Shown one piece after another: positions 30,304 to 45,596 of a stretch of 64,000 nt of DNA. Below the pieces are notes generated by a model. It made no database searches. It was given only the letters and a program-made list of their open reading frames with translations, and had not been told where the DNA came from. The stretch is from Lebetimonas sp. JH292 (GTDB lineage: Bacteria > Campylobacterota > Campylobacteria > Campylobacterales > Nautiliaceae). The DNA is taken from assembly GCF_000523275.1 (NCBI RefSeq), contig NZ_ATHQ01000001.1, positions 505,001 through 569,000 on the forward strand, read 5' to 3'. Within the stretch, counting starts at the first letter, position 1. Every line of letters starts with the position of its first letter. A program made the translations under genes and the position numbers.

Positions 30304-31140
30304 TTATACCTTGTCCAAAATAATAAAAATTAAAAAAATTATTCCCAAATATCCGTTTACATCAAAAAAAGCCTTTGGAATATTTTTAAAATCCCTATTT
30401 ACTAACATTTGTTCATAATAAAGCATACCGGCTGAAATAAAAATTCCTACCCATCCAAAAAAACCGAGGTGGGCATAAGCGGCAAACAAAACCCAAAAAA
30501 TTACCGTAAAAATATGAAACATTCTGGATATAAAAAGAGCCCCTCTTTCACCTACTAATGCTGGAATTGAATGCAGATGCTCTTTTTTGTCAAACTCTAT
30601 ATCCTGCAGTGAATATAAAACATCAAATCCCGCCACCCAAAACATTACACCAATTGCCAAAAAAACACTCCAGCAGGGAATTGAACCGCTAACGGCAACA
30701 GCCCCGGCAATAGGAGCTAATCCTAAAGAAATTCCCAAAATCAGATGCGCTAATTCACTAAATCTTTTAAAATGTGAATATCCCGCCAAAATAAATAAAA
30801 CAGGAACTGATAATTTAAAAGCAAGGGAATTTATCAAATATGCGGCAATTACAAAAACAAAAGCATTTATTCCGATAAATAAAAGCATCTCTTTTTCTTT
30901 TACTTCACCCGTAACAGAAGGTCTGCTTGCAGTTCTTGGATTTTTTGCATCAATATCCCTGTCTACATATCTGTTATAAGCCATGGCGAAATTTCTTGCA
31001 CTTGCAGCGGCTATAATCGCTAAAATCAGCAGTTTCCATCCAAACCACCCGTTGGCAGCCACTACCATGGCAATTAATATAAAAGGAATACTGAAAATTG
31101 TATGCTGAAATTTAACCAATTCCATATATTTTTTTATCAT
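30304..31140 (-). CDS. mqnP: UbiA-type prenyltransferase, probably MqnP
   Basis: 278 residues with eight or nine membrane segments. The two prenyl-phosphate/metal sites are NRYVDRDIDAKN (N-x-x-x-D-x-x-x-D) and YSLQDIEFDKKE (D-x-x-x-D). In Campylobacterota such a single UbiA protein is assigned to the futalosine route of menaquinone (MqnP). The early text MELVKFQHTIFSIPF is usual for the family. Menaquinone would receive electrons from the complex encoded at 34376-43742. It is divergent from miaA. Confidence 0.88.
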   Translation of the reverse strand: MIKKYMELVKFQHTIFSIPFILIAMVVAANGWFGWKLLILAIIAAASARNFAMAYNRYVDRDIDAKNPRTASRPSVTGEVKEKEMLLFIGINAFVFVIAAYLINSLAFKLSVPVLFILAGYSHFKRFSELAHLILGISLGLAPIAGAVAVSGSIPCWSVFLAIGVMFWVAGFDVLYSLQDIEFDKKEHLHSIPALVGERGALFISRMFHIFTVIFWVLFAAYAHLGFFGWVGIFISAGMLYYEQMLVNRDFKNIPKAFFDVNGYLGIIFLIFIILDKV

Positions 31141-31272: not shown

Positions 31273-32130
31273 TTGTTTGCCATTATAGGGCCTACAGCTT
31301 CAGGAAAAAGCAATTTGGCAATAAGCTTAGCAAAAAAATTAAATTATGAAATTCTTTCTCTCGACAGTTTAAGCATATATAAAGAAATTAACATTGCTTC
31401 GGCAAAACCGAGCAGGGTTGAATTAAACGAAATTAAACATTACGGAATAAACGAAATATATCCAAACGAAAAATTCGACGTAACAAAATTTACAGAAATA
31501 TATAAAAAAATCCCACACACAAATATAATAATTGTGGGGGGGACCAGTTTTTATTTAAAGGCCATGATTAGCGGAATTTCAAAAATGCCCCAAATCAGTG
31601 AAGAAATAAAAAAAGAAGCAAAAAAACTAAATTATGAATTTCTAAAAAAAATAGACCCTGTTTACACAGATAAAATTTCAAAAAACGATTCTTACAGAAC
31701 CCAAAAAGGAATAGAAATTTATCTTGCTACAAATTTAGCGCCCACAGAATATTTTAAACAAAACCCTCCAAAACCTGTAATTAAAAATTTACCCATTTTT
31801 GAAATTGAGATTGATAGAAAAACACTTAGAGAAAGAATAAAACTAAGAACCAAAAAGATGTTTGAAATGGGTCTTATTGACGAAATAGCGTATCTTGAGT
31901 ATAAATACCGCGACAGAAGACTTCCGGCATTAAAAGCCATAGGAATAAAAGAGGTACTTGATTATTTTAACGGGATTTATGATAAAAACACCCTTTTTGA
32001 AAAAATAGTTACAAACACTGCAAGACTTGCAAAAAGACAGCAGATTTTCAACAAAACCCAGTTTCCAAATAAAATTTCGACACCTCTTGATAAATTAGAA
32101 AATTTAATACTAAAAAAATATAATTTTTAA
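31273..32130 (+). CDS. miaA: tRNA dimethylallyltransferase MiaA
   Basis: 285 residues. The P-loop is at the very start: MFAIIGPTASGKSNLAISLA, followed by LSLDSLSIYKEINIASAKPS, VGGTSFYLKAMISG, and KDSYRTQKGIEIY-type RRAxE region. It isopentenylates A37 of tRNAs that read UNN codons. The start is TTG at 31273, five bases after AAGGA; no ATG/GTG is suitable. The 3' end overlaps the convergent pflA by four bases. Confidence 0.95.
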   Translation: MFAIIGPTASGKSNLAISLAKKLNYEILSLDSLSIYKEINIASAKPSRVELNEIKHYGINEIYPNEKFDVTKFTEIYKKIPHTNIIIVGGTSFYLKAMISGISKMPQISEEIKKEAKKLNYEFLKKIDPVYTDKISKNDSYRTQKGIEIYLATNLAPTEYFKQNPPKPVIKNLPIFEIEIDRKTLRERIKLRTKKMFEMGLIDEIAYLEYKYRDRRLPALKAIGIKEVLDYFNGIYDKNTLFEKIVTNTARLAKRQQIFNKTQFPNKISTPLDKLENLILKKYNF

Positions 32131-34355
32131 ATTTTCATTTTACGTTTTGAATTTTTAACTTTAAGGCATTTATCTATATATTTTTTATTTTTTGTTAAGT
32201 TTGCTAACATAAAATAAGCCCTTGCCTTATCTTCTCCGCTTATTCTGTTTAAAAGACTTTTTAAAACTTTAATAGCTTCTTTTTTATTTTGTGAATATTT
32301 AGCATATGTAAATTCCACAAAAGGGGAATATGAGTACGCCTTAAAATAATCCTGTAAATCAATAATTTTTTTAGCATATGTTGCTGCTAAAAGATTATCA
32401 CTGTTTTTTAGTGCCCGGTTTACTATTTTTATAAATGCGTCTGTATTTCTTATGTCTTTTGTTTTATCCAGCTCTTTTGCAAGTTTTAATGCTTCATTAA
32501 ATCTATCTAATTTCCAAAGGGCAAAGAATTTTTTAAGTTTATATTCATAACATCCTTTTTTCATTATATTACACAAATCATCAACTGCTAAAACTAAATT
32601 TTTATAATCCCTGAGACCTTCAAGTGCCGTTATTTTTCTTTTCATCCATTTAATAAAAATTTTATCATCTGGTGAGTCTAAATATTTATTGCAAACCACA
32701 GACGCTATATCGTAGGTTTTGGTTTCAATTGCGCATTTATAAACGTTTTCGTCATATTTTTTATCTAAAACAATCTTTTTAGCTTTAATTAAATTAATAG
32801 CTTTAAAACATTTTTTATTTTTAAGCAGATAAATGATATATTTCTTATAAAATTTATTTAAAAACTCTTTTTTGTTTTTAAAAATTTTATCTGGGATTTC
32901 TTTAATTTTATTTTCAAGTTTTAAAATTTCATCATATTTTTTGAGCTTATAAAGAATCATTACTTTTTTATATAATGCTTTATACGCTGTGTCCCCTTTA
33001 TATTTTTTAAGAATTTCATCAATTATTTGCAGCTGTTTTGTCAGGTTTTTTTCCGGAACCTGAAAAATAACTTTATCCCTCAACGCACTCATTGCATCAG
33101 AATAATCCCCGTACGGAAATTCATTTAAATATCTTTCTATCCAGTAAAGCGCCTTTTCATAATTTCCAAGTTCATAATACCAGTTTGCCAGATTGTATTC
33201 GAGAGGTTCATACAAATCATCCAATTTTTTAAGTTTTTTTATTAAATCTTCCCCTATATTGACGGCAAGTTTATACGCATTGTGGCCCGCAAGCAGTTTT
33301 GCAAGTTCATAAGCTTTTTGAGTGTCTTTTAAAAGATAATATTTTTTTGCCTTGTATATTTTTTCATAATATTCAATTGCCTTTTTTATATTCCCCTTGT
33401 CCATATATCTTTGGGCAAGCCTTGAAGCGGCAAGAGAAGCTATTTCAATATCATTAGTTGAATATAAAGCTTTTTCATAAAATTTAAAAGCTTTTTTATC
33501 ATCACCCATCATATATAACTGGTCGGCCAAATAAATCATAGCCTTATACGCTTCTTTTGTGTTTGGATATTCATTTATTATTCTTTGAAAAAGATAACTT
33601 GCATCGCTCATAAAACCGATTTTAGAATAATTTTTTGCCATTAACAGTAAAACTTTCGGAAGATTGTCGTCAAATGCAAATCTTTTGATCCATTCCTTAC
33701 CAAAACTGATAACGTCACTTGCATCATTTTGAGCATCTAAAATTTTAAGTTTTAAAAATAAAATATCCGGTAAAAAAATCGAGTTTGGATAAGTTTTAAC
33801 AAAACTGTCAATTTCCGCCGCTACATCTCTGTGATGTTTATAAGCGCTTAAAATTTCAAAATATTTTAAAACATCCCCGCTCTCTTCATTAATTGGATTG
33901 CCGTTTTCATCTATCGCCCCTATAAAGGGTTTAGGAGAATCTGTAAAATAAAATTTCAACCCGTTAATTTTTGGCTCATATAATTTTTTATCACTTGCTA
34001 TTACAACCCATTTTTTTGTTTTTTGCATTTTAAAAGGATTTATTAAAGAATTCTTATACAAATGTTCATTAAAATTTTTTAACTGATAAAATCTTTTTAT
34101 TTTAATTATTAAAAAAAATTTTTTATTTTGAAATTTTGGGATAATATTAAAAAAAACAGAATTTGTTTTAAATACAGGTGTTGAAGGGATATCGTTAAAT
34201 TCACAAATTATTTTTTTAACATTTTTTTTGCAGACAAACGGTTTATCGTTATATAAAGTCAGTATTTCATATTTTTGTTTATTTTTAAAATAATCAATGT
34301 TAATTTCCAAAGAAAACAAATAAATAAAAGAAAATAAAAAAAGAAAAAATTTCAA
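32127..34355 (-). CDS. pflA: Tetratricopeptide protein, probable flagellar-motor protein PflA
   Basis: 742 residues with a signal peptide (1-16: FLFLFSFIYLFSL), a beta-rich N-terminal domain (about 20-150), and a long run of TPR-like helical pairs (about 180-730: LADQLYMMGDDKKAFKFYEK, NLANWYYELGNYEKALYWIE and others). In Campylobacter jejuni the gene just after nuoN is pflA, whose product is a periplasmic TPR scaffold needed to rotate the flagellar motor. The same position and architecture here support the call. It lies 20 bases after nuoN and is likely read with it. Confidence 0.75.
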   Translation of the reverse strand: MKFFLFLFSFIYLFSLEINIDYFKNKQKYEILTLYNDKPFVCKKNVKKIICEFNDIPSTPVFKTNSVFFNIIPKFQNKKFFLIIKIKRFYQLKNFNEHLYKNSLINPFKMQKTKKWVVIASDKKLYEPKINGLKFYFTDSPKPFIGAIDENGNPINEESGDVLKYFEILSAYKHHRDVAAEIDSFVKTYPNSIFLPDILFLKLKILDAQNDASDVISFGKEWIKRFAFDDNLPKVLLLMAKNYSKIGFMSDASYLFQRIINEYPNTKEAYKAMIYLADQLYMMGDDKKAFKFYEKALYSTNDIEIASLAASRLAQRYMDKGNIKKAIEYYEKIYKAKKYYLLKDTQKAYELAKLLAGHNAYKLAVNIGEDLIKKLKKLDDLYEPLEYNLANWYYELGNYEKALYWIERYLNEFPYGDYSDAMSALRDKVIFQVPEKNLTKQLQIIDEILKKYKGDTAYKALYKKVMILYKLKKYDEILKLENKIKEIPDKIFKNKKEFLNKFYKKYIIYLLKNKKCFKAINLIKAKKIVLDKKYDENVYKCAIETKTYDIASVVCNKYLDSPDDKIFIKWMKRKITALEGLRDYKNLVLAVDDLCNIMKKGCYEYKLKKFFALWKLDRFNEALKLAKELDKTKDIRNTDAFIKIVNRALKNSDNLLAATYAKKIIDLQDYFKAYSYSPFVEFTYAKYSQNKKEAIKVLKSLLNRISGEDKARAYFMLANLTKNKKYIDKCLKVKNSKRKMKI

Positions 34356-34375: not shown

Positions 34376-35707
34376 TTACATTGAAATTGTAGCATTAAAT
34401 ACGCCTGAAGCAAAAATCCCAAAATAAATTGTACCGGCCAACAGTATTAACTGACCTATCAAGCTGCCAGGTGTTATCGATAATTTAACATTATTTACAG
34501 GTTTGTCAAAATAGATATGTTTAACAATCCATGCATAATAAGCAACTGCCAAAGCGGAATTAAGAACAGCTATCAACACTATAGGCCAAAGACCAGCGTC
34601 AACTCCGGAATAAAATGCGACAGCTTTACTCATAAAGCCTGCCAAAAGAGGAATTCCCGCAAGCGAAAACAGCTGGACAGTAAATAAAAATGCATGAACA
34701 GGGGCTTTTATACCCAAACCTTTTATATCCTCAAGGAATTTAACTCCCCCTTCTCTTCTTAAATCATTTAAAATCAAAAATACGCTTGTCTGCATAAAAA
34801 TATATGCTATTGCATAATAAAGCACTCCTGCATATGAATAAACGCTTGCCGCTGCGGCAAAAGGAATAAGGGCATAACCGCTGTGCGCGATGGAAGAATA
34901 AGCCAATATTTTTGAAATTCTTTTTTGCCACAAAGCCATAAAATTGGCAAGCGTCATAGTAATAATCGCAAAAAAACTAAAAATCAATACTGTCGCCAAC
35001 GGATAAGCAATCATAAATTTATAAAATGCCTTAAAAATAGCTATTAACATTACACTTTTAATAACACCGCTTAGTATAGCAGCGGCTGCATGATTAACCT
35101 GGGAATATGTATCGGCAGCCCACGCATGCATCGGTACAATTGTAAGTTTGTAAAATACACCTGCAAGCATTATAGCTACGGCAATTAATGTAAATTTACC
35201 GTTTACACTCATTTGAGAATATGTAAAACTCTCTGTTGTAAAAGAGAAAAACGCAAATCCCAGTAAAATAATACCACTTGCTACTGCACCTGCTATAAAT
35301 GCTTTAACCGCACCTTCCGCATTGTAAAAATTTCTTATATTTGCAACTAAAATATAAGAAACTATCGCAATAGACTCAAACAAAACAATAAATACAAAAA
35401 AATTATCTGTTTCGAGTATTGCGAGTGAAAGACCTGCTATAAAAAGCATTTGTGCTATTAGCGGCCTTTCAAACCCTGTAAGTGAAAGAGACACGGCCGC
35501 AAGTGTCGCAAGTAAAACATATTCAATCAATTTTGTGGCACTGTCGGTGACAAACAATGGAAAAACACTGCTTAAACTTTGATTGGTATAAACAAAATAA
35601 GCAGATGCTATAAATGCCAAAACTGCAATCAGTTTAGCGATAAATATATTACTTTTATAAAACACTGGTACCAATAATCCCGCTGCAATTAAAATTATAA
35701 AACTCAT
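34376..35707 (-). CDS. nuoN: Complex I subunit NuoN
   Basis: 443 residues, about 12-13 membrane helices. The antiporter-like signature AVAIMLAGVFYKLTIVPMHA, then WAADTYSQVNHAAAAILSGV is visible, and RISKILAYSSIAHSGYALIP is conserved in NuoL/M/N. It is a proton-pumping arm of the membrane domain. Its start base overlaps the stop of nuoM. Confidence 0.94.
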   Translation of the reverse strand: MSFIILIAAGLLVPVFYKSNIFIAKLIAVLAFIASAYFVYTNQSLSSVFPLFVTDSATKLIEYVLLATLAAVSLSLTGFERPLIAQMLFIAGLSLAILETDNFFVFIVLFESIAIVSYILVANIRNFYNAEGAVKAFIAGAVASGIILLGFAFFSFTTESFTYSQMSVNGKFTLIAVAIMLAGVFYKLTIVPMHAWAADTYSQVNHAAAAILSGVIKSVMLIAIFKAFYKFMIAYPLATVLIFSFFAIITMTLANFMALWQKRISKILAYSSIAHSGYALIPFAAAASVYSYAGVLYYAIAYIFMQTSVFLILNDLRREGGVKFLEDIKGLGIKAPVHAFLFTVQLFSLAGIPLLAGFMSKAVAFYSGVDAGLWPIVLIAVLNSALAVAYYAWIVKHIYFDKPVNNVKLSITPGSLIGQLILLAGTIYFGIFASGVFNATISM

Positions 35708-37137
35708 TACATACCTCCAAGAAAGCCGAATGCTTGATTTGCCAAATCAAAAATAGGCTGTGGATTTATTCCAAAATAAACAATTAAAACGGCAAAAACT
35801 GCCAAAGCAAATTTTTCTGCAATAGTCATTGAAAAATCGGATTTTATTACCGTGTCTGATGCTTCGCCGTGAATCGAACGTCTTACAGCCCAAATTATAT
35901 AACCGGCACTTATCAAACTTCCCAAAGCAATTATTGCTATCCACCAGCCATAGGCTTTAATAGCGGAAACTATAATTGTAAGTTCACCTACAAATCCCAT
36001 TGTTCCTGGAAGTCCTAAAGCTGCCATACCGGCTAAAATAAATATTGCGGAAGCATATGGCGCATATTTCATAATACCTCCCATTTCATCCATATACCAA
36101 GTATGTGTTTTATGATGCAACCATCCTGCAATTAAAAACAATGGTGATATAACAAGAGCATGCCCTATCATTTCATATAAAGCCGCACTAAGCCCGTCAT
36201 ATGTCATAGTAGAAACAGCAACCACAACAAGACCCATATGTGATATTGAAGAATAAGCAACCATTCTTTTAATATGTCTTTCAAATATGGCAAGCATACC
36301 TGCAAAAAGTGTTGTTGTAAGCCCTATAATTACCATCCAAATAGCAAACTCTTTTGTAGCTGCAGGCATAAGCTCAACAGTAAATCTGATAAGCCCGTAA
36401 GCACCCATTTTAAGTAAAACTCCTGCCAATAATACAGAAATTGAACTAGGCGCTTCTACGTGTGCGACAGGAAGCCACGTATGAAGTGGAAACACGGGCA
36501 GCTTCGCTGCAAATCCTAAAAACATCAGCCACCATATAAGTGCTGGTGTAGTAAGTGCCGCCTCTTTGATTAATGTTAAATCCCAGTATCCTGTCTGTTT
36601 GAATAAAAGAAAAAATCCTACAAACATAAACATTGCAAAAACGTGTGTAAAGAGGAAAAATTTTATTGCAGCATATATTCTTTTTTCTCCTCCCCAAATT
36701 CCTACAAGAAAATACATCGGAACCAAAGTCAATTCCCAGAAAATAAAAAACCATAATACATTAGTGGTCATAAAAACACCGAAAATAGGACCGCTGAACA
36801 TAATGAGCAAACTAAAATATGCCGCTTGGTTTTTTTCTTCCCAGGACGTAAATACAACAAGAATCAATAAAGCTGATGTTAAAAGCAGCATTGCAATACT
36901 CAAAGCATCAACCCTAAGTGTCAAATCAAACCCAAACTGAGGAACGTTTAAATAATTTCCAAGCTCCAAAAATCCAACCTGAGGCAAATCTTTATACCAG
37001 CTAAACGCAATAAAAAATTCCACAATAAACCAGCCGAGTGCTATATATTTTGTATATTGTGGAGTTGATTTTGTCAAATAATAAACTAATACCGATAAAA
37101 ATATCGGCGCAAAAATAATATCTACCGCTACCATCAC
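35707..37137 (-). CDS. nuoM: Complex I subunit NuoM
   Basis: 476 residues of antiporter-like membrane protein. Hallmarks: KLPVFPLHTWLPVAHVEAPS, SVLLAGVLLKMGAYGLIR and RHIKRMVAYSSISHMGLVVV, with the conserved lysine and glutamate of the proton channel (LTLVPMYFLVGIWGG has the E/T region before it). Four bases overlap with nuoL. The ATG at 37137 or 37134 may be used. Confidence 0.95.
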   Translation of the reverse strand: MMVAVDIIFAPIFLSVLVYYLTKSTPQYTKYIALGWFIVEFFIAFSWYKDLPQVGFLELGNYLNVPQFGFDLTLRVDALSIAMLLLTSALLILVVFTSWEEKNQAAYFSLLIMFSGPIFGVFMTTNVLWFFIFWELTLVPMYFLVGIWGGEKRIYAAIKFFLFTHVFAMFMFVGFFLLFKQTGYWDLTLIKEAALTTPALIWWLMFLGFAAKLPVFPLHTWLPVAHVEAPSSISVLLAGVLLKMGAYGLIRFTVELMPAATKEFAIWMVIIGLTTTLFAGMLAIFERHIKRMVAYSSISHMGLVVVAVSTMTYDGLSAALYEMIGHALVISPLFLIAGWLHHKTHTWYMDEMGGIMKYAPYASAIFILAGMAALGLPGTMGFVGELTIIVSAIKAYGWWIAIIALGSLISAGYIIWAVRRSIHGEASDTVIKSDFSMTIAEKFALAVFAVLIVYFGINPQPIFDLANQAFGFLGGM

Positions 37138-38984
37138 AGACCCTTTACAATTATTAAGATTGCCAATACAATAATTGCAACACCGATAACCATTTGTCCC
37201 ATATATGTTCCTATTTTACCAGTATGCCCTATTCTGAAGATTTTATAAATTCTGTAACTTGTAGGGACGCTCCCGTCAACAATATAATCGACAACATAAG
37301 TGTCAAACCATCTTGCAGATGCCGCAAGGGCATTTACTATTATATTTTTGCTAACCCAGGTAATCATCGCCTCCACATAATAACCGTTGAATAGAATTTG
37401 ATGAATTGTCTGCACAAAATGGTGGGACCCTATTTTATAAAGTAAGTTCAGTCCTTTTACATAAAGCCCCACAACAATTAAGAAAATAACAAACATAGTT
37501 GTAAGCATAAATATACCAAGCCAGGCTATATGCTCTTCTACACCAGCTTCTCCTGTAATATAATGTACTATATTACTTTGCCAAATAGCAATAATAAGTG
37601 TTATAAAAGCCAATATTCCAAGAGGCAGTCTAATCCACAAATTACTTGGTTTATGTACGCTTCCCGCTATATCTTCATTTCTCGGTTCTCCCAAGAAAAC
37701 CAAAATCCAAAGTCTTGTAATATAAGCGATTGAAAGAAGCGCCGCTATTGTTACAAAAATTTTAGTAAATTCATTTCCGTGAAGCCATGCTGCCGTTACA
37801 ACCATTTCTTTTGAAAAAAATCCGCTAAACGGAGGAACCCCCGCCAAAGAAAGTGAGCCCATGGCCATAAACAAGGCTATATAAGGAGCTTTTTTTACTA
37901 ATCCCCCCAGTTTCCATGCATCTTTTGTGTGATGGGAAATATATATAATAGCACCTGCACTTAAGAACAATAACGCTTTAAAAATAGCATGATTTACCAA
38001 ATGCATCATTCCGGCAGCCAAACTTCCGACTCCAAGGCCTACAAAAGCAATTGAAAGATGTGACATTGTTGAATAAGCGAGTATTTTTTTAATCTCTTTT
38101 TGTACAAGAGCAGAAGTTGAGCCTATAAATGCCGAAAGAGCGGCAACATTTGCCACAACATATAACGCATCTGTATAAGCATAAAAATCAAAAAGTCTTG
38201 CCACTATATAAATACCGCTGTTAACCATTGTAGCACCATGGATAAGAGCTGAAACTGTAGTAGGACCTTCCATTGCATTCATTAGCCAAGGATATAATGG
38301 AAACTGCCCTGATTTACCGATTGCACCCATAAAAATAAAAAGAGCTGCAACCAGCGCAACTGTTTTATTAATCTCTCCTGCATCTGCTAAATGATTTAGC
38401 TCTACTAAATTAACTGTTCCTACATAATAATAAAGTAGTCCAATTGCTGCTAAAATAAATATATCACCAAATCTTGTATATAAAAATGCTTGCATACCTG
38501 CATTAGCAGCAGATTTTTTATAATACCAGAAACTGATTAAAGCATAACTTGCAAGACCCATAAATTCCCAGCCGACAAACGCGCCTATCAAATCTTTTGT
38601 AATTACAAGCAGTATCATCCCGCCTATAAAAAACAATACTTTTGCGTAATATCTCGGTTGGTCCGGATCACTTCCCATATAATCATGTGCAAAATGAATA
38701 TCAGCAAACCCAAGACCGGTCGCTATCAAAAGCATTACAATGGAAAGATGGTCTATATAAATTCCAAAAGGCAAATTAATTTCACCGTAATGAATCCATG
38801 TATAATCAATATTTATAGGAGAGCCTGAATGTGTTAAAAATATAACAATACTTGCCAAAAACAATATTGCACCTGTAACTTCTGCTACCCAAAAAGCCAG
38901 AGGCTGTTTTAGTTTACCTAAAACATACGCCAATACTGCACCGATAAACGGAGCGTATAATAAAATGTTTACTGCATTATTCAT
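37134..38984 (-). CDS. nuoL: Complex I subunit NuoL
   Basis: 616 residues. Antiporter motifs: GKSGQFPLYPWLMNAMEGPT, TVSALIHGATMVNSGIYIVA, and KKILAYSTMSHLSIAFVGLG. The C-terminal third carries the extra helices and the lateral arm typical of NuoL. It overlaps nuoK by eight bases. Confidence 0.95.
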   Translation of the reverse strand: MNNAVNILLYAPFIGAVLAYVLGKLKQPLAFWVAEVTGAILFLASIVIFLTHSGSPINIDYTWIHYGEINLPFGIYIDHLSIVMLLIATGLGFADIHFAHDYMGSDPDQPRYYAKVLFFIGGMILLVITKDLIGAFVGWEFMGLASYALISFWYYKKSAANAGMQAFLYTRFGDIFILAAIGLLYYYVGTVNLVELNHLADAGEINKTVALVAALFIFMGAIGKSGQFPLYPWLMNAMEGPTTVSALIHGATMVNSGIYIVARLFDFYAYTDALYVVANVAALSAFIGSTSALVQKEIKKILAYSTMSHLSIAFVGLGVGSLAAGMMHLVNHAIFKALLFLSAGAIIYISHHTKDAWKLGGLVKKAPYIALFMAMGSLSLAGVPPFSGFFSKEMVVTAAWLHGNEFTKIFVTIAALLSIAYITRLWILVFLGEPRNEDIAGSVHKPSNLWIRLPLGILAFITLIIAIWQSNIVHYITGEAGVEEHIAWLGIFMLTTMFVIFLIVVGLYVKGLNLLYKIGSHHFVQTIHQILFNGYYVEAMITWVSKNIIVNALAASARWFDTYVVDYIVDGSVPTSYRIYKIFRIGHTGKIGTYMGQMVIGVAIIVLAILIIVKGL

Positions 38985-39285
38985 CTCTCACCGCCTTATC
39001 CAGGTTATCAGGTATTATTTCGCCTGTCATCCTTGAACTTAATATAAATATCAAAATACCTGCTGCCGCTTCAAGTGTGGCAATAACTATAATTACATAA
39101 GCTACGGCCAAACATCTTGTAAATCCAAAATGATACGCCGCACTTGCCAAAAGCAGAATTACCGCATTTAAAAGCATTTCAAGAGAAAAAAATATTTTTA
39201 AAAAATCACTTTTACTTGTAACACCGTATAATCCTACGCCAAAAAGCATAAGCGCAAAAAAAGCGTCAATATAAAAATTAACCAT
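38977..39285 (-). CDS. nuoK: Complex I subunit NuoK
   Basis: 102 residues, three membrane helices: FALMLFGVGLYGVTSKSDFL, KIFFSLEMLLNAVILLLASA and VIVIATLEAAAGILIFILSS. The two membrane glutamates (in SLEM and TLEA) used in proton transfer are both present. Confidence 0.94.
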   Translation of the reverse strand: MVNFYIDAFFALMLFGVGLYGVTSKSDFLKIFFSLEMLLNAVILLLASAAYHFGFTRCLAVAYVIIVIATLEAAAGILIFILSSRMTGEIIPDNLDKAVRDE

Positions 39286-39287
39286 TT

Positions 39288-39755
39288 TTATTCCTTTTCA
39301 TGTTTTAGAGTGTACAGCATTCTAATACTTCCATATAATATGCTTGCTCCCACTACACCTGTAAAAATCGCTATTTCAGCATAAAAATCGGTAAACACCT
39401 TTACCTGTTCTTCAAGAGGTATAGGCTTGCCGGCATTTGAAATTTCAGGCATTAAAAACGGAATTATCACCAACCCTATCAAAACAAACGTAACAACCGC
39501 AACAGCCCACGGCCTAATTTTAAATTCAGGAAATTTAGCCCCTATAACCGTCACACCGAAAAGTGTTAAAACAACAATCCCCCCGGTATATACAAATATT
39601 TGGAAAAGTCCTAAAAATTTTTCACCCATTCCTATATAATATATACCGAGTAAAAACATCATCGTAACAAATGACATCACGGCACCCACGGTATTTTTTT
39701 GTGTTAGACTCATAACAGCAAGGACTAATGCCAAAAATAAAATCAGTATACTCAT
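39288..39755 (-). CDS. nuoJ: Complex I subunit NuoJ
   Basis: 155 residues, five membrane helices. The FQIFVYTGGIVVLTLFGVTV region is the NuoJ signature with its conserved glycine-rich helix that links the quinone site and membrane arm. It starts with ATGA, which would overlap the intended TGA of nuoI (see nuoI). Confidence 0.94.
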   Translation of the reverse strand: MSILILFLALVLAVMSLTQKNTVGAVMSFVTMMFLLGIYYIGMGEKFLGLFQIFVYTGGIVVLTLFGVTVIGAKFPEFKIRPWAVAVVTFVLIGLVIIPFLMPEISNAGKPIPLEEQVKVFTDFYAEIAIFTGVVGASILYGSIRMLYTLKHEKE

Positions 39756-40305
39756 TTTTCCTCTCCTTTTGGAGCTTCAGACTCTTGTTTTTTAGCTTCA
39801 GCTTCTGCCTTCTTTTTTTAGCTTCAGCTTCTGCCTTCTTTTTAGCCAGCATCTCAGCTTTTTTTCTTGCTTTTTCCTCTTCTTCTTTTTTCTTCTTTTC
39901 AATCCACTCTTCCGGCACGTCAGCCCTTACCCAGAAATTTTCAAGAGTGTCGTGTGTTCCGTTTTGAGTTATCATTTCTATATCCCCGCCTGAAAGTTTA
40001 ATGGCTTTTTCAGGTTTGGTAGGGCACACATCTTCACATAAACCGCAAAAAATACAAATAGCTAAATTTACTTCCGGTACTTTATTCGGTCTTTTAATAG
40101 GAAGCGGTTTCATTTTAATAGCGTCTACAGGACAAATTTTATTACATGCATCGCATCCGGTACATATATCATATCTTACAACATGCCTTCCCCTGAAAAC
40201 GGAAGATTTGTGAGCCGGTTCTTTTACCACATCTTTAATGGCCTCTCTCGGCTCGGTTACTGCTTTTAAAACCCTTAATACTCTTTCGCTAATCTGGAAT
40301 AACAT
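39622..40305 (-). CDS. nuoI: Complex I subunit NuoI with frameshifted C-terminal tail
   Basis: Two 4Fe-4S ferredoxin motifs are intact: CTGCDACNKICPVDAIK and CIFCGLCEDVCPTKPEKAI. A charged tail of K, E and A follows, made by tandem copies of a 25-base unit (KKKAEAEAKKKAEAEA). A run of seven A (T at 39813-39819) shifts the frame, so the tail reads RRQKLKLKNKSLKLQKERK to 39622. With six A it would end KKQESEAPKGEEK and stop at 39752, overlapping the nuoJ start as elsewhere in this operon. The cluster-binding part is not affected. Confidence 0.88.
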   Translation of the reverse strand: MLFQISERVLRVLKAVTEPREAIKDVVKEPAHKSSVFRGRHVVRYDICTGCDACNKICPVDAIKMKPLPIKRPNKVPEVNLAICIFCGLCEDVCPTKPEKAIKLSGGDIEMITQNGTHDTLENFWVRADVPEEWIEKKKKEEEEKARKKAEMLAKKKAEAEAKKRRQKLKLKNKSLKLQKERKNEYTDFIFGISPCCYESNTKKYRGCRDVICYDDVFTRYILYRNG

Positions 40306-40306
40306 T

Positions 40307-41278
40307 TTAAGCTCCTAATATATAAATTCTTGCAAATGTAACCCAAACCAAATTGAGTATAGCCATAGGCGTGAGCCAGCTCCAGGTAAATTTTAACATC
40401 TGATCAAGCCTGAGTCTTGGATTTGACGCTCTTATTGCAACAACCATAATGGCAATTAAAACTATTTTAATAAACAGCCACCAAAAACTCTCAAACCCCA
40501 ATCCTCTGTATCCGCCGAAAAAAAGCACCACCGCACTGGCACTTACAACAAGTATTTCGGTAAATCCCGCAAATTTAAGCAAAATATAATTTGTTCCGGA
40601 ATATTCAGTATAAAATCCGTAAACAATTTCCTGTTCCGCATCCGGAATATTAAAAGGAGGCTGCTCAAGAATTCCAAGCATTGCTATAATATAAATAATC
40701 GCACCCGGCAGTAAAATCAATGTAGTAAGCCATGTGTTACTTTCCATAATTTCATATAAATTCATAGTTCCAAAAAGAACTGCCGGTGAGAGTGAAGCAA
40801 GAAAAAACGGCGATTCCATTGACAACATTTGTGAAAGTATTCTCATCCCTCCAAGAAGAGAATATTTGTTATTACTTCCAAAACCTGTAAGGAACAGTAA
40901 AAACGGTTCAACCCCTATTAATACAACAAGTCCCAAAACTCCGTAATTTGTATCTATAATCCCATGCCCGTTATTAACCAAAGGACTCCATGGAATTAAA
41001 AACACGGGAAGTGCAGCCACCAAAGGGGCAATTATGGGAATAATATTAAAAAGATACGGATCAGCACTTTTAGGAGTAACACTTTCTTTTACCAAAAGTT
41101 TAAACACATCATATACTGTTTGTAAGCTGCCGGCAGGCCCGTTAAAATGAGGACCCACTCTTTTATGAACATAAGCCAGAGCTTTTCTTGAAAAATAAAA
41201 AATAAAAAAAGTCCAGCAAAGTAAAAATATAAATCCAGGAAACACAAAAATATAAAAAAGTATTTCACCTATTCCCAT
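40307..41278 (-). CDS. nuoH: Complex I subunit NuoH
   Basis: 323 residues, about eight membrane helices. It has the quinone-site loops FSRKALAYVHKRVGPHFNGP and EQPPFNIPDAEQEIVYGFYT-EYSG (both strongly conserved in NuoH and in HycD-type hydrogenase subunits). It sits between nuoCD and nuoI in the core order. Confidence 0.94.
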   Translation of the reverse strand: MGIGEILFYIFVFPGFIFLLCWTFFIFYFSRKALAYVHKRVGPHFNGPAGSLQTVYDVFKLLVKESVTPKSADPYLFNIIPIIAPLVAALPVFLIPWSPLVNNGHGIIDTNYGVLGLVVLIGVEPFLLFLTGFGSNNKYSLLGGMRILSQMLSMESPFFLASLSPAVLFGTMNLYEIMESNTWLTTLILLPGAIIYIIAMLGILEQPPFNIPDAEQEIVYGFYTEYSGTNYILLKFAGFTEILVVSASAVVLFFGGYRGLGFESFWWLFIKIVLIAIMVVAIRASNPRLRLDQMLKFTWSWLTPMAILNLVWVTFARIYILGA

Positions 41279-41287
41279 TTTATCTCC

Positions 41288-42943
41288 TTATCTGTCTAAA
41301 TCGCCCTGACATATATGCATACTTCCGTAAAGCAGCGGAATGTCAGATAATGTTTTTCCTCTAATCAATGTATCAAGCACCATTGTATGGTTTACACTCG
41401 GAGCTTTAAGTTTAAGTCTGTAAGGGCTGGTTGCTTTTTCACCTGTTACTAAATGCATAAGCATTTCGCCTCTCGCCCATTCAACTCTTGCAACAGCCTC
41501 ACCTTTTGGAAGTCTTTTTGGAATTCTTACCAAATGATCTTTCATTGGGTCCATTTCTCCCGCTTCAATACCTGCTTCAATTTTTTTCATTGCCTGTTTA
41601 ATTAAATCAATAGCCTGGTTTATTTCTTTATAGATTATAAAAAGTCTGTCTCTTGCATCACCGTTTTCACAGGTTACATAATCTATTTCAAGCTCCCCAT
41701 AAGCAGCATAAGGTTCATCTATTCTTACATCTGTTTTATATCCGCTCGCTCTGGCTATAGGACCTGCTAAATAATAAGTTTCGACATCATCTTTTGTAAA
41801 CATTCCAAGATTTTTTGCCCGTGTGGTCATAAGCGGATTTTTCATAAAAATATCTTCGATATCAGGTTTAACATTTTCCCATTTTTTAATTGCTTTTTCT
41901 ATTTCCCCAAACCATGTTTTATAATCACTTAAAGGAAACCTCACTCCCCCCGGTTCAACGCTTGCGGTTGCGATTCTTGCCCCGCTGTAATCTTCCAATA
42001 CATCAAGGAAAAATTCCCTGATATCAAGCGTCCACATTAAAAATGTCTGAAGGCCCATTGTTCCGAAAAATCCACCGACAGAAAGTAAATGAGATGCAAT
42101 TCTTCCTGTTTCACCTAAAATCACCCTCATAAATTTGGCAAAAGGGGTTATTTCTTTTCCAGCAATCTCTTCTACCGCCTGGGAATAACAAATCATAGGA
42201 TTGGGATTGTCCATAAAGCAGATTCTCTCAACCGCTGTAATAGCCCCTATAAAATCTTTTCTCTCAACTAAATTTTCAAGTGCTCTCCATACATATCCTA
42301 TGTCTGGGTCTATTTTTTCAATAATTTCCCCGTTTGTGGTAACTTTTAACCTAATCGGCCCGCTTGCAGGATGCGTAGGCCCCCAGTTTAATATTGTATG
42401 AGCGCTCTCATGCCCTATTTTTTGCTCATTTTCATCGAAATCATCAAAAAAATCTTTTGTAATAATATTAATATTTTCTATTAAATTTTTTTCATGGGAA
42501 ACCCAGTCAAAATCTTTTCTGAAAGGAAATTTTCCGTAAAAATCCTGGGAAATTAAAAAATACCTGAGATTCGGATGATTTTTAAATTTTACTCCGAAAG
42601 TCGAATAAGCCTCAAGTTCATGCCAATCGGCACTCGGAAAAAGAGGGGTAATTGAATCAATTTCACATTTTTCAAGCTCTCTTGGTAAATCAACTTTAAG
42701 CCATACATTTCTTTTATTTTTTAAATCTTCCAAAAAATAATTCATCTCAATTTTATCTTCATCTATAAAATCGGTAGGTGAAACGGTTGAGCAGGTTTTA
42801 AGCCCCTCTTCTTTAAGGGCTTTTACAACATTTAACAAATCATCTTTATTTTTAAGTTTTGTTTTTAGCCATGTTTTTTTGTAATCTTCAATATATTCAT
42901 TTTCATAATTTTTTAAAATATCTTTAAGTTTCTCCATTGCCAT
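41288..42943 (-). CDS. nuoCD: Fused complex I subunit NuoCD, hydrogenase-like
   Basis: 551 residues; NuoC-like part about 1-165 (SADWHELEAYSTFGVKFKNH), NuoD-like part about 180-551 starting NWGPTHPASGPIRLKV. The NuoD part contains DIGYVWRALENLVERKDF, then AVERICFMDNPNPMICYSQA, text that matches the large subunit of group 4 NiFe hydrogenases better than standard NuoD. The CxxC pairs of those enzymes appear as C242-x-x-D245 and C546-x-x-D549, so the NiFe site should be absent but only one residue per pair has changed. It oxidises or reduces quinone with NuoB. Confidence 0.9.
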   Translation of the reverse strand: MAMEKLKDILKNYENEYIEDYKKTWLKTKLKNKDDLLNVVKALKEEGLKTCSTVSPTDFIDEDKIEMNYFLEDLKNKRNVWLKVDLPRELEKCEIDSITPLFPSADWHELEAYSTFGVKFKNHPNLRYFLISQDFYGKFPFRKDFDWVSHEKNLIENINIITKDFFDDFDENEQKIGHESAHTILNWGPTHPASGPIRLKVTTNGEIIEKIDPDIGYVWRALENLVERKDFIGAITAVERICFMDNPNPMICYSQAVEEIAGKEITPFAKFMRVILGETGRIASHLLSVGGFFGTMGLQTFLMWTLDIREFFLDVLEDYSGARIATASVEPGGVRFPLSDYKTWFGEIEKAIKKWENVKPDIEDIFMKNPLMTTRAKNLGMFTKDDVETYYLAGPIARASGYKTDVRIDEPYAAYGELEIDYVTCENGDARDRLFIIYKEINQAIDLIKQAMKKIEAGIEAGEMDPMKDHLVRIPKRLPKGEAVARVEWARGEMLMHLVTGEKATSPYRLKLKAPSVNHTMVLDTLIRGKTLSDIPLLYGSMHICQGDLDR

Positions 42944-42946
42944 CCC

Positions 42947-43420
42947 TTAAAATTTCATTTGTTTCCAGAGACCGCCCTGACTTGACGCACTCGGCTCGCC
43001 TCTTTTTATTTTTTCTTTAAGTTCTTCAAGTCCGGCAATAATTGCTTCCGGTTTTGGAGGACAGCCCGCCACAAACACATCTGCAGGCAGAATTTCGGTC
43101 ATATTTTTAATTACCGATGGAGAATCATTATAAGGACCCCCGTCAAACGCACATGCACCGATTGCCACAACATATCTGGGCTCCGGCATCTGCTCGTATG
43201 TTCTAAGAAGAGCCGGAAGAATTTTTTTGCTTACAAGCCCTGTAATAAAAATAATATCGGCCTGTCTCGGAGTCGGCGTCATTATATATCCGTATCTTTC
43301 CCAGTCATATCTCGGCCCCATGGATGCCAACATTTCAAGAGAGCAGCAGCCGCTACAAAAATGGACAATCCAAGGAGATTTACTCCTTGCATAATTAAAG
43401 AAATCAAGCACTTTTAGCAT
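42947..43420 (-). CDS. nuoB: Complex I subunit NuoB
   Basis: 157 residues. It carries the N2 cluster nearest the quinone site. Ligands: C25 and C26 (with an extra C22 giving CxxCC in HFCSGCCSLEM), C90 in IGACAFDGGPY and C120 in VAGCPPKPEAI. Hydrogenase small subunits have CxxC at this place, while NuoB usually has only CC; both patterns are present here. Overlaps nuoA by 17 bases. Confidence 0.94.
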   Translation of the reverse strand: MLKVLDFFNYARSKSPWIVHFCSGCCSLEMLASMGPRYDWERYGYIMTPTPRQADIIFITGLVSKKILPALLRTYEQMPEPRYVVAIGACAFDGGPYNDSPSVIKNMTEILPADVFVAGCPPKPEAIIAGLEELKEKIKRGEPSASSQGGLWKQMKF

Positions 43421-43742
43421 TTCTATACTCCTTCATACTGATAGTAATAGCCGCAAACAGCAATACACCAAATATCATGGCCCAATTTAAGGCATTTTTA
43501 TTATCTGCAAAAACAAACAAAGAAAAGAAAAGTCCAGCCATATCAAAAACAATAAATGCAATCGCAAAAATAAAATAATTGAAATTGGCTTTGTTTGGAA
43601 CTTCACTGCTTGGCGGAAGTCCGCATTCAAAATGATCGTTTTTAATTTCACCAGGATTGTAAGGTGCCACTATTATACCCAAGAGATACAATAAAACTAC
43701 CCCTGTAATCAGACCTGCGGCTATTGCCAAAATCAAACCCAT
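43404..43742 (-). CDS. nuoA: Complex I subunit NuoA
   Basis: 112 residues, three membrane helices, with HFECGLPPSSEV and NYFIFAIAFIVFDMAGLFFS (the ECG loop and FD motif of NuoA). It is the first gene of the operon A-B-CD-H-I-J-K-L-M-N-pflA. A TTATACT-like box lies about 20 bases upstream of 43742. Confidence 0.93.
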   Translation of the reverse strand: MGLILAIAAGLITGVVLLYLLGIIVAPYNPGEIKNDHFECGLPPSSEVPNKANFNYFIFAIAFIVFDMAGLFFSLFVFADNKNALNWAMIFGVLLFAAITISMKEYRNAKSA

Positions 43743-43883: not shown

Positions 43884-45596
43884 TCACTTATGTAAAAAAC
43901 CTATCTCTTTTTCATTGTCGAACGCATTTATTTTTTCTTTTCTAATCTCCTCTATAAAATCTTGAGTTTTAAACATAGAATTTTTTCTCATAGCAACTTT
44001 TAGGGCGGTATTTTTTATTATAACCTCAATTTGAGCTCCGGTAAGTTCAAATGATGAGAGTTTCTTAATATCAAAATTTTCTTCATATTTAGCATTTTTA
44101 GGAAGCTTAAGTTCCCATAATTTCAATCTTTCTTTGAAAGACGGTTTTTTAAATTCTATTTTTAAATCAAATCTTCTTGAAAATGCTTTATCAAATGATT
44201 CAAGCAGATTGGTTGTGGCAATTAAAATTCCTTCGAATTTTTCGATTCTTTCTAAAAATATATTTTGCATCTGATTGTGCATTTTATCGGCACTGCTGAA
44301 GGTTGCGGCTGTTCTTGTACTCAAAAACTGGTCGGCCTCGTTCAATAAAAGCACAGGTTTTGTTTTTAGTTTTTCCGCCACCATATTATATTCGTCAAAA
44401 AGTTTCCTTACATTTTTTTCACTCTCACCCACATACATGGAAAGTATTTTAGAGCAGTCAAGGCTTAGAAGAGGCTTATTAAACTCTTTTGCCAAAGCCA
44501 AAGCCGTAACTGTTTTGCCGGTTCCCGGATGTCCGTAAAAAATTATTTTAGCCTCTATGCCGTTTGAGCTTTTTACTCCCCATCTTTTTAATTTATTTAT
44601 TACTTTTTTATCCGTCTGTTTTAACAAAGTATTCAGACTCTCTTTTGTTTTCTCATCCAAAACAATATCTTTTAATGAATATTCTGGTTCAATAAAATCA
44701 AAAAGCGTTTCTTTTACAATATGTTCAATTTTATGTTTTGTTCTTGGATGTATCAAATCTTTGAGTATTTCATCATTTATAAAAAATATTTTTGTAAAAC
44801 CCCCAAAAGCGCCTATCAGTTCGTCATAATCCACAATTTCCTCGCTGACAAGCTTTGAGTTCTCATCCAGCAAACTTCTGTTTTTTATTCTTTCTATCTC
44901 ATCACTGCTGACAAGATTTAATAAAAAATTCATTTCCCTTGCATTTTCATTCGAATTGGTATACTCTTCTTTTAAAAGAGCTAAAAATATTATTTCCTCT
45001 TTTTCATTTAATTCATACTCTTTTATAAAATTAATTACCGGCAGATCAATTTTTGTTTTTTTAACTTTTTCTTTTATTGTATTTTCAATAAGTTTTAATT
45101 TGCTTTGAAGCCTTTTTATGCTTGAGCTTGTTTTGGAAAAAGAATTTTTTATATTTGCAAGCTGTTCGTATATTTCTATTCTTAAAAACTCATCATGCAA
45201 AAATTCCAGATGGTCGTTATATGGTTTATTTTCAGGCACCACAAGTTCGAGCGAACCCTGCTCTATTAACCTTAAAAAAGCAATGGAAAGAGAAATACTG
45301 GAATTAAAAAGCTCCAGATTGGTCATATCATTTATTTTAAACTGTCCCACTGAGCTTATTACAACCCATCCCTCCTCTATCAGATTTTTTATTACGTCTA
45401 TATTTTCAAGGGCTTTAAATTTATCTTTTCCAAATATCGAAAATAAAATTTCCTTTACGCTGACATCCTCTTTTGAATCCAGATAAAATTCAAGCATAAT
45501 CCTTAGTATTTCAGTTTCTTCTTTTTTTAAATTTAAAACTTTGTAAACAGTGCTGTTTTGGGGATTTTTTAAAAAAGATATTATATTATTTACCAA
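43884..45596 (-). CDS. AAA+ ATPase (CDC48-like) with unknown N-terminal domain
   Basis: 570 residues. The N-terminal 300 residues are helical and unrecognised. The C-terminal half is an AAA domain: Walker A YGHPGTGKTVTALALAKEF, Walker B KPVLLLNEADQF, sensor 1 ILIATTNLLESFD, and arginine finger AFSRRFD. The Walker B has NEAD rather than DE-x-D. This type of ATPase is common in Campylobacterota but its substrate is not known. It is monocistronic here, divergent from rsmE. Confidence 0.8.
   Translation of the reverse strand: MVNNIISFLKNPQNSTVYKVLNLKKEETEILRIMLEFYLDSKEDVSVKEILFSIFGKDKFKALENIDVIKNLIEEGWVVISSVGQFKINDMTNLELFNSSISLSIAFLRLIEQGSLELVVPENKPYNDHLEFLHDEFLRIEIYEQLANIKNSFSKTSSSIKRLQSKLKLIENTIKEKVKKTKIDLPVINFIKEYELNEKEEIIFLALLKEEYTNSNENAREMNFLLNLVSSDEIERIKNRSLLDENSKLVSEEIVDYDELIGAFGGFTKIFFINDEILKDLIHPRTKHKIEHIVKETLFDFIEPEYSLKDIVLDEKTKESLNTLLKQTDKKVINKLKRWGVKSSNGIEAKIIFYGHPGTGKTVTALALAKEFNKPLLSLDCSKILSMYVGESEKNVRKLFDEYNMVAEKLKTKPVLLLNEADQFLSTRTAATFSSADKMHNQMQNIFLERIEKFEGILIATTNLLESFDKAFSRRFDLKIEFKKPSFKERLKLWELKLPKNAKYEENFDIKKLSSFELTGAQIEVIIKNTALKVAMRKNSMFKTQDFIEEIRKEKINAFDNEKEIGFLHK

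Follow-up and report, generated by a model that had tools for sequence, protein, structure and literature searches.

A complex I-like lineage without NuoE, NuoF and NuoG and with two cysteines at NiFe-site positions in Lebetimonas sp. JH292 and related Campylobacterota

The minus-strand operon at 34376-43742 of Lebetimonas sp. JH292 codes for NuoA, NuoB, a fused NuoCD, NuoH, NuoI, NuoJ, NuoK, NuoL, NuoM and NuoN according to NCBIfam and Pfam, and its NuoCD belongs to a clade, here called CxxD after its motifs, that to judge from sequence forms a lineage of its own among the non-hydrogenase branches of the tree, outside all canonical NuoD proteins sampled. Our preferred reading, to which we give a probability of about one half, is that this lineage is a complex I-like proton pump that lacks NuoE, NuoF and NuoG (EFG), probably takes its electrons from ferredoxin or flavodoxin, and has a rebuilt acceptor site. 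Coordinates refer to the window, i.e. the whole 64,000-nt stretch of contig NZ_ATHQ01000001.1 that was analysed; the whole genome is 99.7% complete.

Gene content, N2 cluster and membrane arm

The genes, all on the minus strand, are nuoA (43404-43742, assigned through NCBIfam and Pfam), nuoB (42947-43420), nuoCD (41288-42943), whose product is a fused C and D (49-kDa) subunit of 551 residues of the CxxD type, nuoH (40307-41278), nuoI (39622-40305), nuoJ (39288-39755), nuoK (38977-39285) and the genes of the three antiporter-like subunits, nuoL (37134-38984), nuoM (35707-37137) and nuoN (34376-35707). This is the gene set of an EFG-less complex I-like enzyme, NuoABCDHIJKLMN, and the NuoE, NuoF and NuoG of a 14-subunit complex I are missing from it. 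The initial annotation had described the operon in this way and had named separate nuoEFG genes elsewhere as evidence that would contradict it. Whole-genome HMM searches, which are the basis of the genome-wide statement and in which the controls were positive, gave zero matches to NuoF (PF01512), NuoG (PF10588) and NuoE (PF01257), and an origin of NuoEFG from another locus was rejected on these grounds.

NuoI contains two 4Fe-4S motifs and a long, charged C-terminal tail rich in Lys, Glu and Ala, which varies in length between relatives and is a possible docking tail. Its reading frame slips in a run of A near 39813-39819 (minus strand) and then continues into nuoJ; the nuoI of the relatives stops just before nuoJ. 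The slip is probably a one-base homopolymer assembly error and possibly a real frameshift.

NuoB, the N2-bearing subunit, retains four cluster cysteines plus C22, and the equivalents of the N2 ligands C63, C64, C129 and C158 are invariant, in agreement with the complex I superfamily. Its motif C22-S-G-C25-C26 (43343-43357, minus strand) had been read as the CxxC of hydrogenases combined with the tandem Cys of NuoB. The motif itself is present, and its CxxC region is identical in pattern to the FCTGCGGIEM of MbsJ, but with the following Glu as anchor it is offset by one residue from the small subunits of the genome's own Ech and Hyf enzymes, so that on sequence grounds a correspondence to the hydrogenase CxxC would be tentative.

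In the membrane arm we compared residues of E. coli NuoH, NuoK, NuoL, NuoM and NuoN that we take to be functionally important in the proton pathway. As in the complex I superfamily, the key Glu and Lys residues of NuoK (E36 and E72), NuoL (E144, D178, K229 and K399) and NuoN (E133, K217, K247 and K395) are retained, as are the channel Glu/Lys motifs of NuoM, in which K212 is replaced by Glu in one relative (one of 17). NuoH keeps E157, E218, E220 and E228, has Asp for E216, and places E36 within a two-residue deletion. From these residues we infer pumping through the membrane arm.

The NiFe-site and quinone-site positions of NuoCD

Where a hydrogenase has RxCxxC and canonical NuoD has R-x-[DN]-Y, the L1 motif of NuoCD reads R240-I-C242-F-M-D245 (42209-42226, minus strand), which bears out the initial annotation in that the second hydrogenase Cys is replaced by Asp. 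The L2 motif, C545-Q-G-D548-L-D-R551 (41291-41311, minus strand), stands in place of CxxCxxR in hydrogenases and of [VI]xx[ED]xxR in canonical NuoD. It had been recognized correctly as CxxDxxR, but its Cys and Asp lie at 545 and 548 and not at 546 and 549. The residues then quoted as standard for NuoD, Val and Glu, have to be widened: the first place is occupied by Val or Ile, and the second by Glu in 18 and by Asp in 3 of the 21 canonical sequences. D548 is for this reason Nuo-like as far as sequence goes, and only the first-place Cys of L2 is odd in comparison with the canonical Val or Ile.

With the group 4 hydrogenases (Ech, Hyf/FHL, Mbh) NuoCD shares the first Cys of each CxxC, the Arg preceding L1 and the C-terminal Arg. 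It differs from them in the Asp that replaces the second Cys of both motifs, and therefore no NiFe site is expected; every member of the clade has CxxD and CxxDxxR rather than the four Cys of RxCxxC and CxxCxxR. The assignment as an active hydrogenase was rejected because two of the four NiFe Cys are gone. Neither is NuoCD of the Ehr type, which has no L1 or L2 Cys, as it retains two. Given the hydrogenase-rooted tree, C242 and C545 are most simply explained as leftovers of the NiFe site, i.e. an ancestral remnant. AlphaFold2 models of NuoCD, and of the D domain with ten relatives, had a mean pLDDT of 53, too low to resolve the site.

The JH292 genome encodes four further proteins of the 49-kDa family. 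The FHL/Hyf-type, the Ech-like and the Coo/Ech-like proteins have intact CxxC motifs, and the Ehr-like protein has none. The complex of the latter, without L1 or L2 Cys (L022, 9024-15671), adjoins succinyl-CoA synthetase-like genes and genes which, named by our own reading, are presumably 2-oxoacid:ferredoxin oxidoreductase-like.

The half-retained motifs have a parallel in MBS, the membrane-bound sulfane reductase of Pyrococcus furiosus (MBS/MBX; 6U8Y), an enzyme already regarded as intermediate between hydrogenase and complex I (PMC7684303). In HMMER alignments, from which the MbsL residues were read, partly via a chimeric look-up query, P. furiosus MbsL has R-I-C85-V-P-E88 and C385-P-P-D388-I-D-R391, and C242 and C545 of NuoCD align with C85 and C385. 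Of the four NiFe Cys, both complexes thus retain the same two and have acidic residues in place of the others, and they also share a one-residue deletion in the His loop, the lack of the quinone His and Tyr, and FCxGC in the B subunit. According to PMC7684303, MBS lacks H38 and Y87, and no more than three Cys ligate its proximal cluster. In contrast, NuoB of the CxxD complex has the tandem Cys, which MBS lacks, together with both other ligands; its arm is composed of NuoAHJKLMN and not of Mrp-type antiporter modules, and the maximum-likelihood tree puts the D subunits on separate branches. An MBS/MBX-like operon occurs in another member of the Campylobacterota (G061; L063, 172-8563); it encodes antiporter subunits of the Mrp type, and its large subunit is CxxE/CxxExxR (motifs RICVPEP and CPPEIER).

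Bovine H59 and Y108, or H38 and Y87 in Thermus, are the residues at the quinone headgroup (PMC8119997; PMC7684303). NuoCD has no counterpart of the His, for its headgroup loop, GPTHPAS-G (188-195; 42359-42382, minus strand), is one residue shorter, and F243 (42215-42217, minus strand) replaces the ligand Tyr. The equivalents of H59, Y108 and D160, the last of which we take to be the partner of H59 in the bovine enzyme, are present in 21, 20 and 21 of the 21 canonical NuoD sequences and in none of the 13 sequences of the CxxD clade, all of which have a deletion, a Phe and a Thr, Asn or Ser, respectively, at these places. In the alignments, then, the triad is lost, a change which the initial annotation had not mentioned, while the N2 ligands and the proton-channel residues were retained. 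The three missing headgroup residues argue against an ordinary menaquinone site. In comparison to canonical complex I (NuoD, Nqo4, NDUFS2), the fold family, N2 ligands, proton-channel residues and membrane subunits are alike; the differences are the absence of NuoEFG and of H59, Y108 and D160, the Cys at L1 and L2, and the position of the D subunit outside the canonical group.

Distribution and phylogenetic placement

CxxD-type NuoCD was found in 14 of 397 Campylobacterota genomes, namely in all nine listed Nautiliaceae (f1) and in five others (four f4, one f7). The other NuoD-like proteins of the Campylobacterota, among the matches listed, reach at most about 33% identity. We compared 18 operons from the Nautiliaceae and the five other Campylobacterota, with NuoCD identity down to 58%. 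C242, D245, C545, D548 and the FC[ST]GCC of NuoB are invariant in all 18, so that the CxxD/CxxD pattern, for which the initial annotation had proposed a check in other Nautiliales, is common to them. Because only 41% of the D-domain columns are invariant in the same set, these residues are not a product of chance, and a chance motif was rejected.

The Nautiliales loci agree in gene order, and so do those of four other carriers; in the one remaining carrier (G003) the contig ends after nuoI. The compared loci have no extra subunit gene in common, and no gene for an electron partner was found linked to the operon in them. In most Nautiliaceae the operon is flanked by genes for a winged-helix AAA ATPase (43884-45596) and a TPR protein (DUF7494; 32127-34355). 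As replacement subunits they were rejected, since in the deeper relatives (L015, L016 and the five carriers outside the family) they do not lie beside the operon.

NuoG was found in none of the nine Nautiliaceae genomes, and in one of these (G299, a draft of 99% completeness) the CxxD NuoCD is the sole protein of the 49-kDa family. In all five carriers outside the Nautiliaceae, a canonical NuoD and a NuoG occur in addition. Since they keep a canonical complex I alongside, the CxxD enzyme probably differs from it in function.

Viral contigs contained no relative, and the matches on plasmids were all below 60% identity; some of them were taken as canonical references. Two plasmid records deserve a description of their own. 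Rhizobium leguminosarum plasmid pR132503 (L062) bears a stand-alone nuoC-nuoD pair beside cyanophycinase and isoaspartyl peptidase genes, and pSTEC411_1 (L083), a 1.4-Mb sequence annotated as an E. coli plasmid, bears nuo genes, although the part of it that was inspected contains no uninterrupted frame for a complete nuoM.

The D-domain tree, inferred by maximum likelihood, was rooted on the hydrogenases; its sample left out Fpo, full NdhH and the EFG-less complexes of other phyla. The hydrogenases (100/100), the CxxD clade (100/100), MBS (100/99) and canonical NuoD (99/97) each form a supported group. The placement deep inside ordinary NuoD that would have spoken against the initial annotation was not obtained, and NuoCD also scores below each curated NCBIfam cut-off for NuoD (303.1 of 360 bits for PRK06075; 237.5 of 459.35 for TIGR01962). 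With 231.9 of 600 bits it likewise falls below the curated cut-off for FpoD, the D subunit of Fpo (F420H2 dehydrogenase).

The order of the three non-hydrogenase groups is less firm. The D-domain tree joins MBS with canonical NuoD (97/92), yet AU tests rejected neither a union of CxxD with canonical NuoD (p 0.093) nor one with MBS (p 0.101), from which the tree separates the CxxD D subunit; a tree of B and D together leaves CxxD, MBS and the canonical group as a trichotomy (59/37). The earlier description of the complex as transitional or half-converted is apt in that the clade lies outside both the hydrogenases and canonical NuoD, but the half-site is not unique, as MBS shares the two Cys. 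Because neither the AU tests nor the joint tree of B and D fixes where the clade branches with respect to MBS and canonical Nuo, "separate living lineage" would seem the better wording. With Fpo and the EFG-less D subunits of other phyla outside the sample, this lineage may include more members than were found here, or may be nested together with those proteins.

Proposed function and its alternatives

How could such a complex work without NuoEFG and without the quinone triad? Because EFG are absent, electrons would enter at or near NuoI, where reduced ferredoxin, a plausible candidate donor, or flavodoxin, for which a gene is present in the JH292 genome, would reduce the two clusters, possibly docking at the charged tail. 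N2 would take over the electrons from there and hand them on to an acceptor inside the chamber that lies between the NuoD, NuoB and NuoH subunits, and this step would be coupled to proton pumping via NuoH, NuoL, NuoM and NuoN. Menaquinone would be the likeliest acceptor because menaquinone genes are present (MqnP at 30304-31140 in the window and MqnC elsewhere in the genome). It would be held and protonated in a manner unlike that of complex I, there being no His or Tyr, with D245, D548 and the two thiols as candidate proton groups. Polysulfide is its chief rival as acceptor.

Related complexes offer precedents. Ferredoxin has been proposed as the electron source of the EFG-less complex of Desulfitobacterium, and alignments of the 11-subunit complex have been taken to indicate the same Q-module function as in 14-subunit complex I (PMC11238625); for the complex of Campylobacter jejuni, flavodoxin is the proposed donor (Weerakoon and Olson 2008, cited in PMC12361115). 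The 11-subunit complex of Desulfitobacterium hafniense has the same gene set and order, again without nuoE, F and G, and a Nuo-type membrane arm. The CxxD complex differs from it in the lost quinone triad, the two NiFe-site Cys and the fusion of C and D, the D. hafniense D subunit itself lying outside our sample. The partial NUO complex of Nautilia profundicola is evidently the same enzyme as that of JH292. The N. profundicola report (PMC2628731) also lists nuoK as missing, whereas it is present in the Lebetimonas sp. JH292 operon. Carboxydothermus hydrogenoformans is reported there to have this gene structure too.

Polysulfide reductase belongs to the respiration of N. profundicola (PMC2628731), and an MBS-like ferredoxin:polysulfide reductase, in which a sulfur chain would be reduced at the proximal cluster in the hydrophobic chamber, would fit the two Cys with their acids, the H38-loop deletion as in P. 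furiosus MbsL, the lost quinone residues, FCxGC and the top PDB match of NuoB, which is MbsJ by a small margin. However, MBS chemistry needs the three-Cys proximal cluster (PMC7684303), and with the tandem Cys and both other ligands retained in NuoB no open iron site is expected. Moreover, the CxxD complex has none of the Mrp-type membrane modules of MBS, and the two Cys are dispensable for MBS catalysis. We regard this reading as unlikely.

The enzyme could also run in reverse, the proton gradient driving the formation of reduced ferredoxin for CO2 fixation. That this is its main direction in cells, with menaquinol (from H2 or formate) and the proton motive force yielding reduced ferredoxin or flavodoxin, we find rather improbable, and it is a variant of our preferred reading and not a full alternative. 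The Nautiliaceae have a ferredoxin-consuming CO2-fixation cycle, and for the partial complex of N. profundicola a reverse flow of electrons that yields NAD(P)H has been proposed (PMC2628731), but the group 4 hydrogenases that these genomes also encode can themselves serve as a direct source of ferredoxin, and no sequence feature fixes the direction.

An ordinary EFG-less complex I of the 11-subunit kind, with a normal quinone reaction and with the Cys and the lost residues as meaningless drift of the lineage, would agree with the known nuoABCDHIJKLMN set and with the complex I-like N2 and membrane-arm residues. Against this, the changes are invariant in 18 operons, which is not drift, the residues H59, Y108 and D160 are lost in all 13 clade sequences while canonical NuoD keeps them almost throughout, and the D subunit lies outside canonical NuoD and below every curated cut-off for it; we give this reading little credence.

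A metal bound by C242, D245, C545 and D548 at the former NiFe place, with a metal-based reaction, is very improbable even though the four residues are invariant in the clade at the four NiFe-ligand positions and genuine group 4 hydrogenases are among the proteins of this genome, because four Cys hold the NiFe cofactor (PMC12134894), Asp or Glu is normal at the second L2 place of canonical NuoD, and MBS has an equivalent set, in which the C85A and C385A enzymes have activity comparable to wild type (PMC7684303).

MBS and EFG-less complex I are already known, and so, from the 2009 report (PMC2628731), is the absence of nuoE, F and G in Nautilia profundicola. For these bacteria, neither the CxxD/CxxD motifs nor the separate lineage nor the missing quinone triad turned up in the open-access literature that was searched. 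For the origin of complex I from hydrogenases, and the question of whether the quinone site arose before or after the loss of NiFe, few intermediates have been available so far, MBS being the chief one. To our preferred reading of an EFG-less pump with a rebuilt acceptor site, a bolder version may tentatively be added, which we consider possible but doubtful: besides MBS, the clade could represent a third line to have survived between the NiFe hydrogenases and complex I, its NiFe site frozen at a stage of two Cys and two Asp, with the N2 tandem Cys and the full pumping arm kept, a substrate, reduced or oxidized, other than conventionally bound quinone, and a Cys2Asp2 pocket that takes part in the chemistry. 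The CxxD clade adds an independent data point, in which an MBS-like half-lost site is combined with the N2 ligation and membrane arm of complex I, and in it the loss of the three quinone residues is uncoupled from the remainder of complex I; some members of this lineage are in culture. As some bacteria carry both the CxxD type and a canonical complex I, the question of donor and acceptor of an EFG-less complex becomes directly testable.
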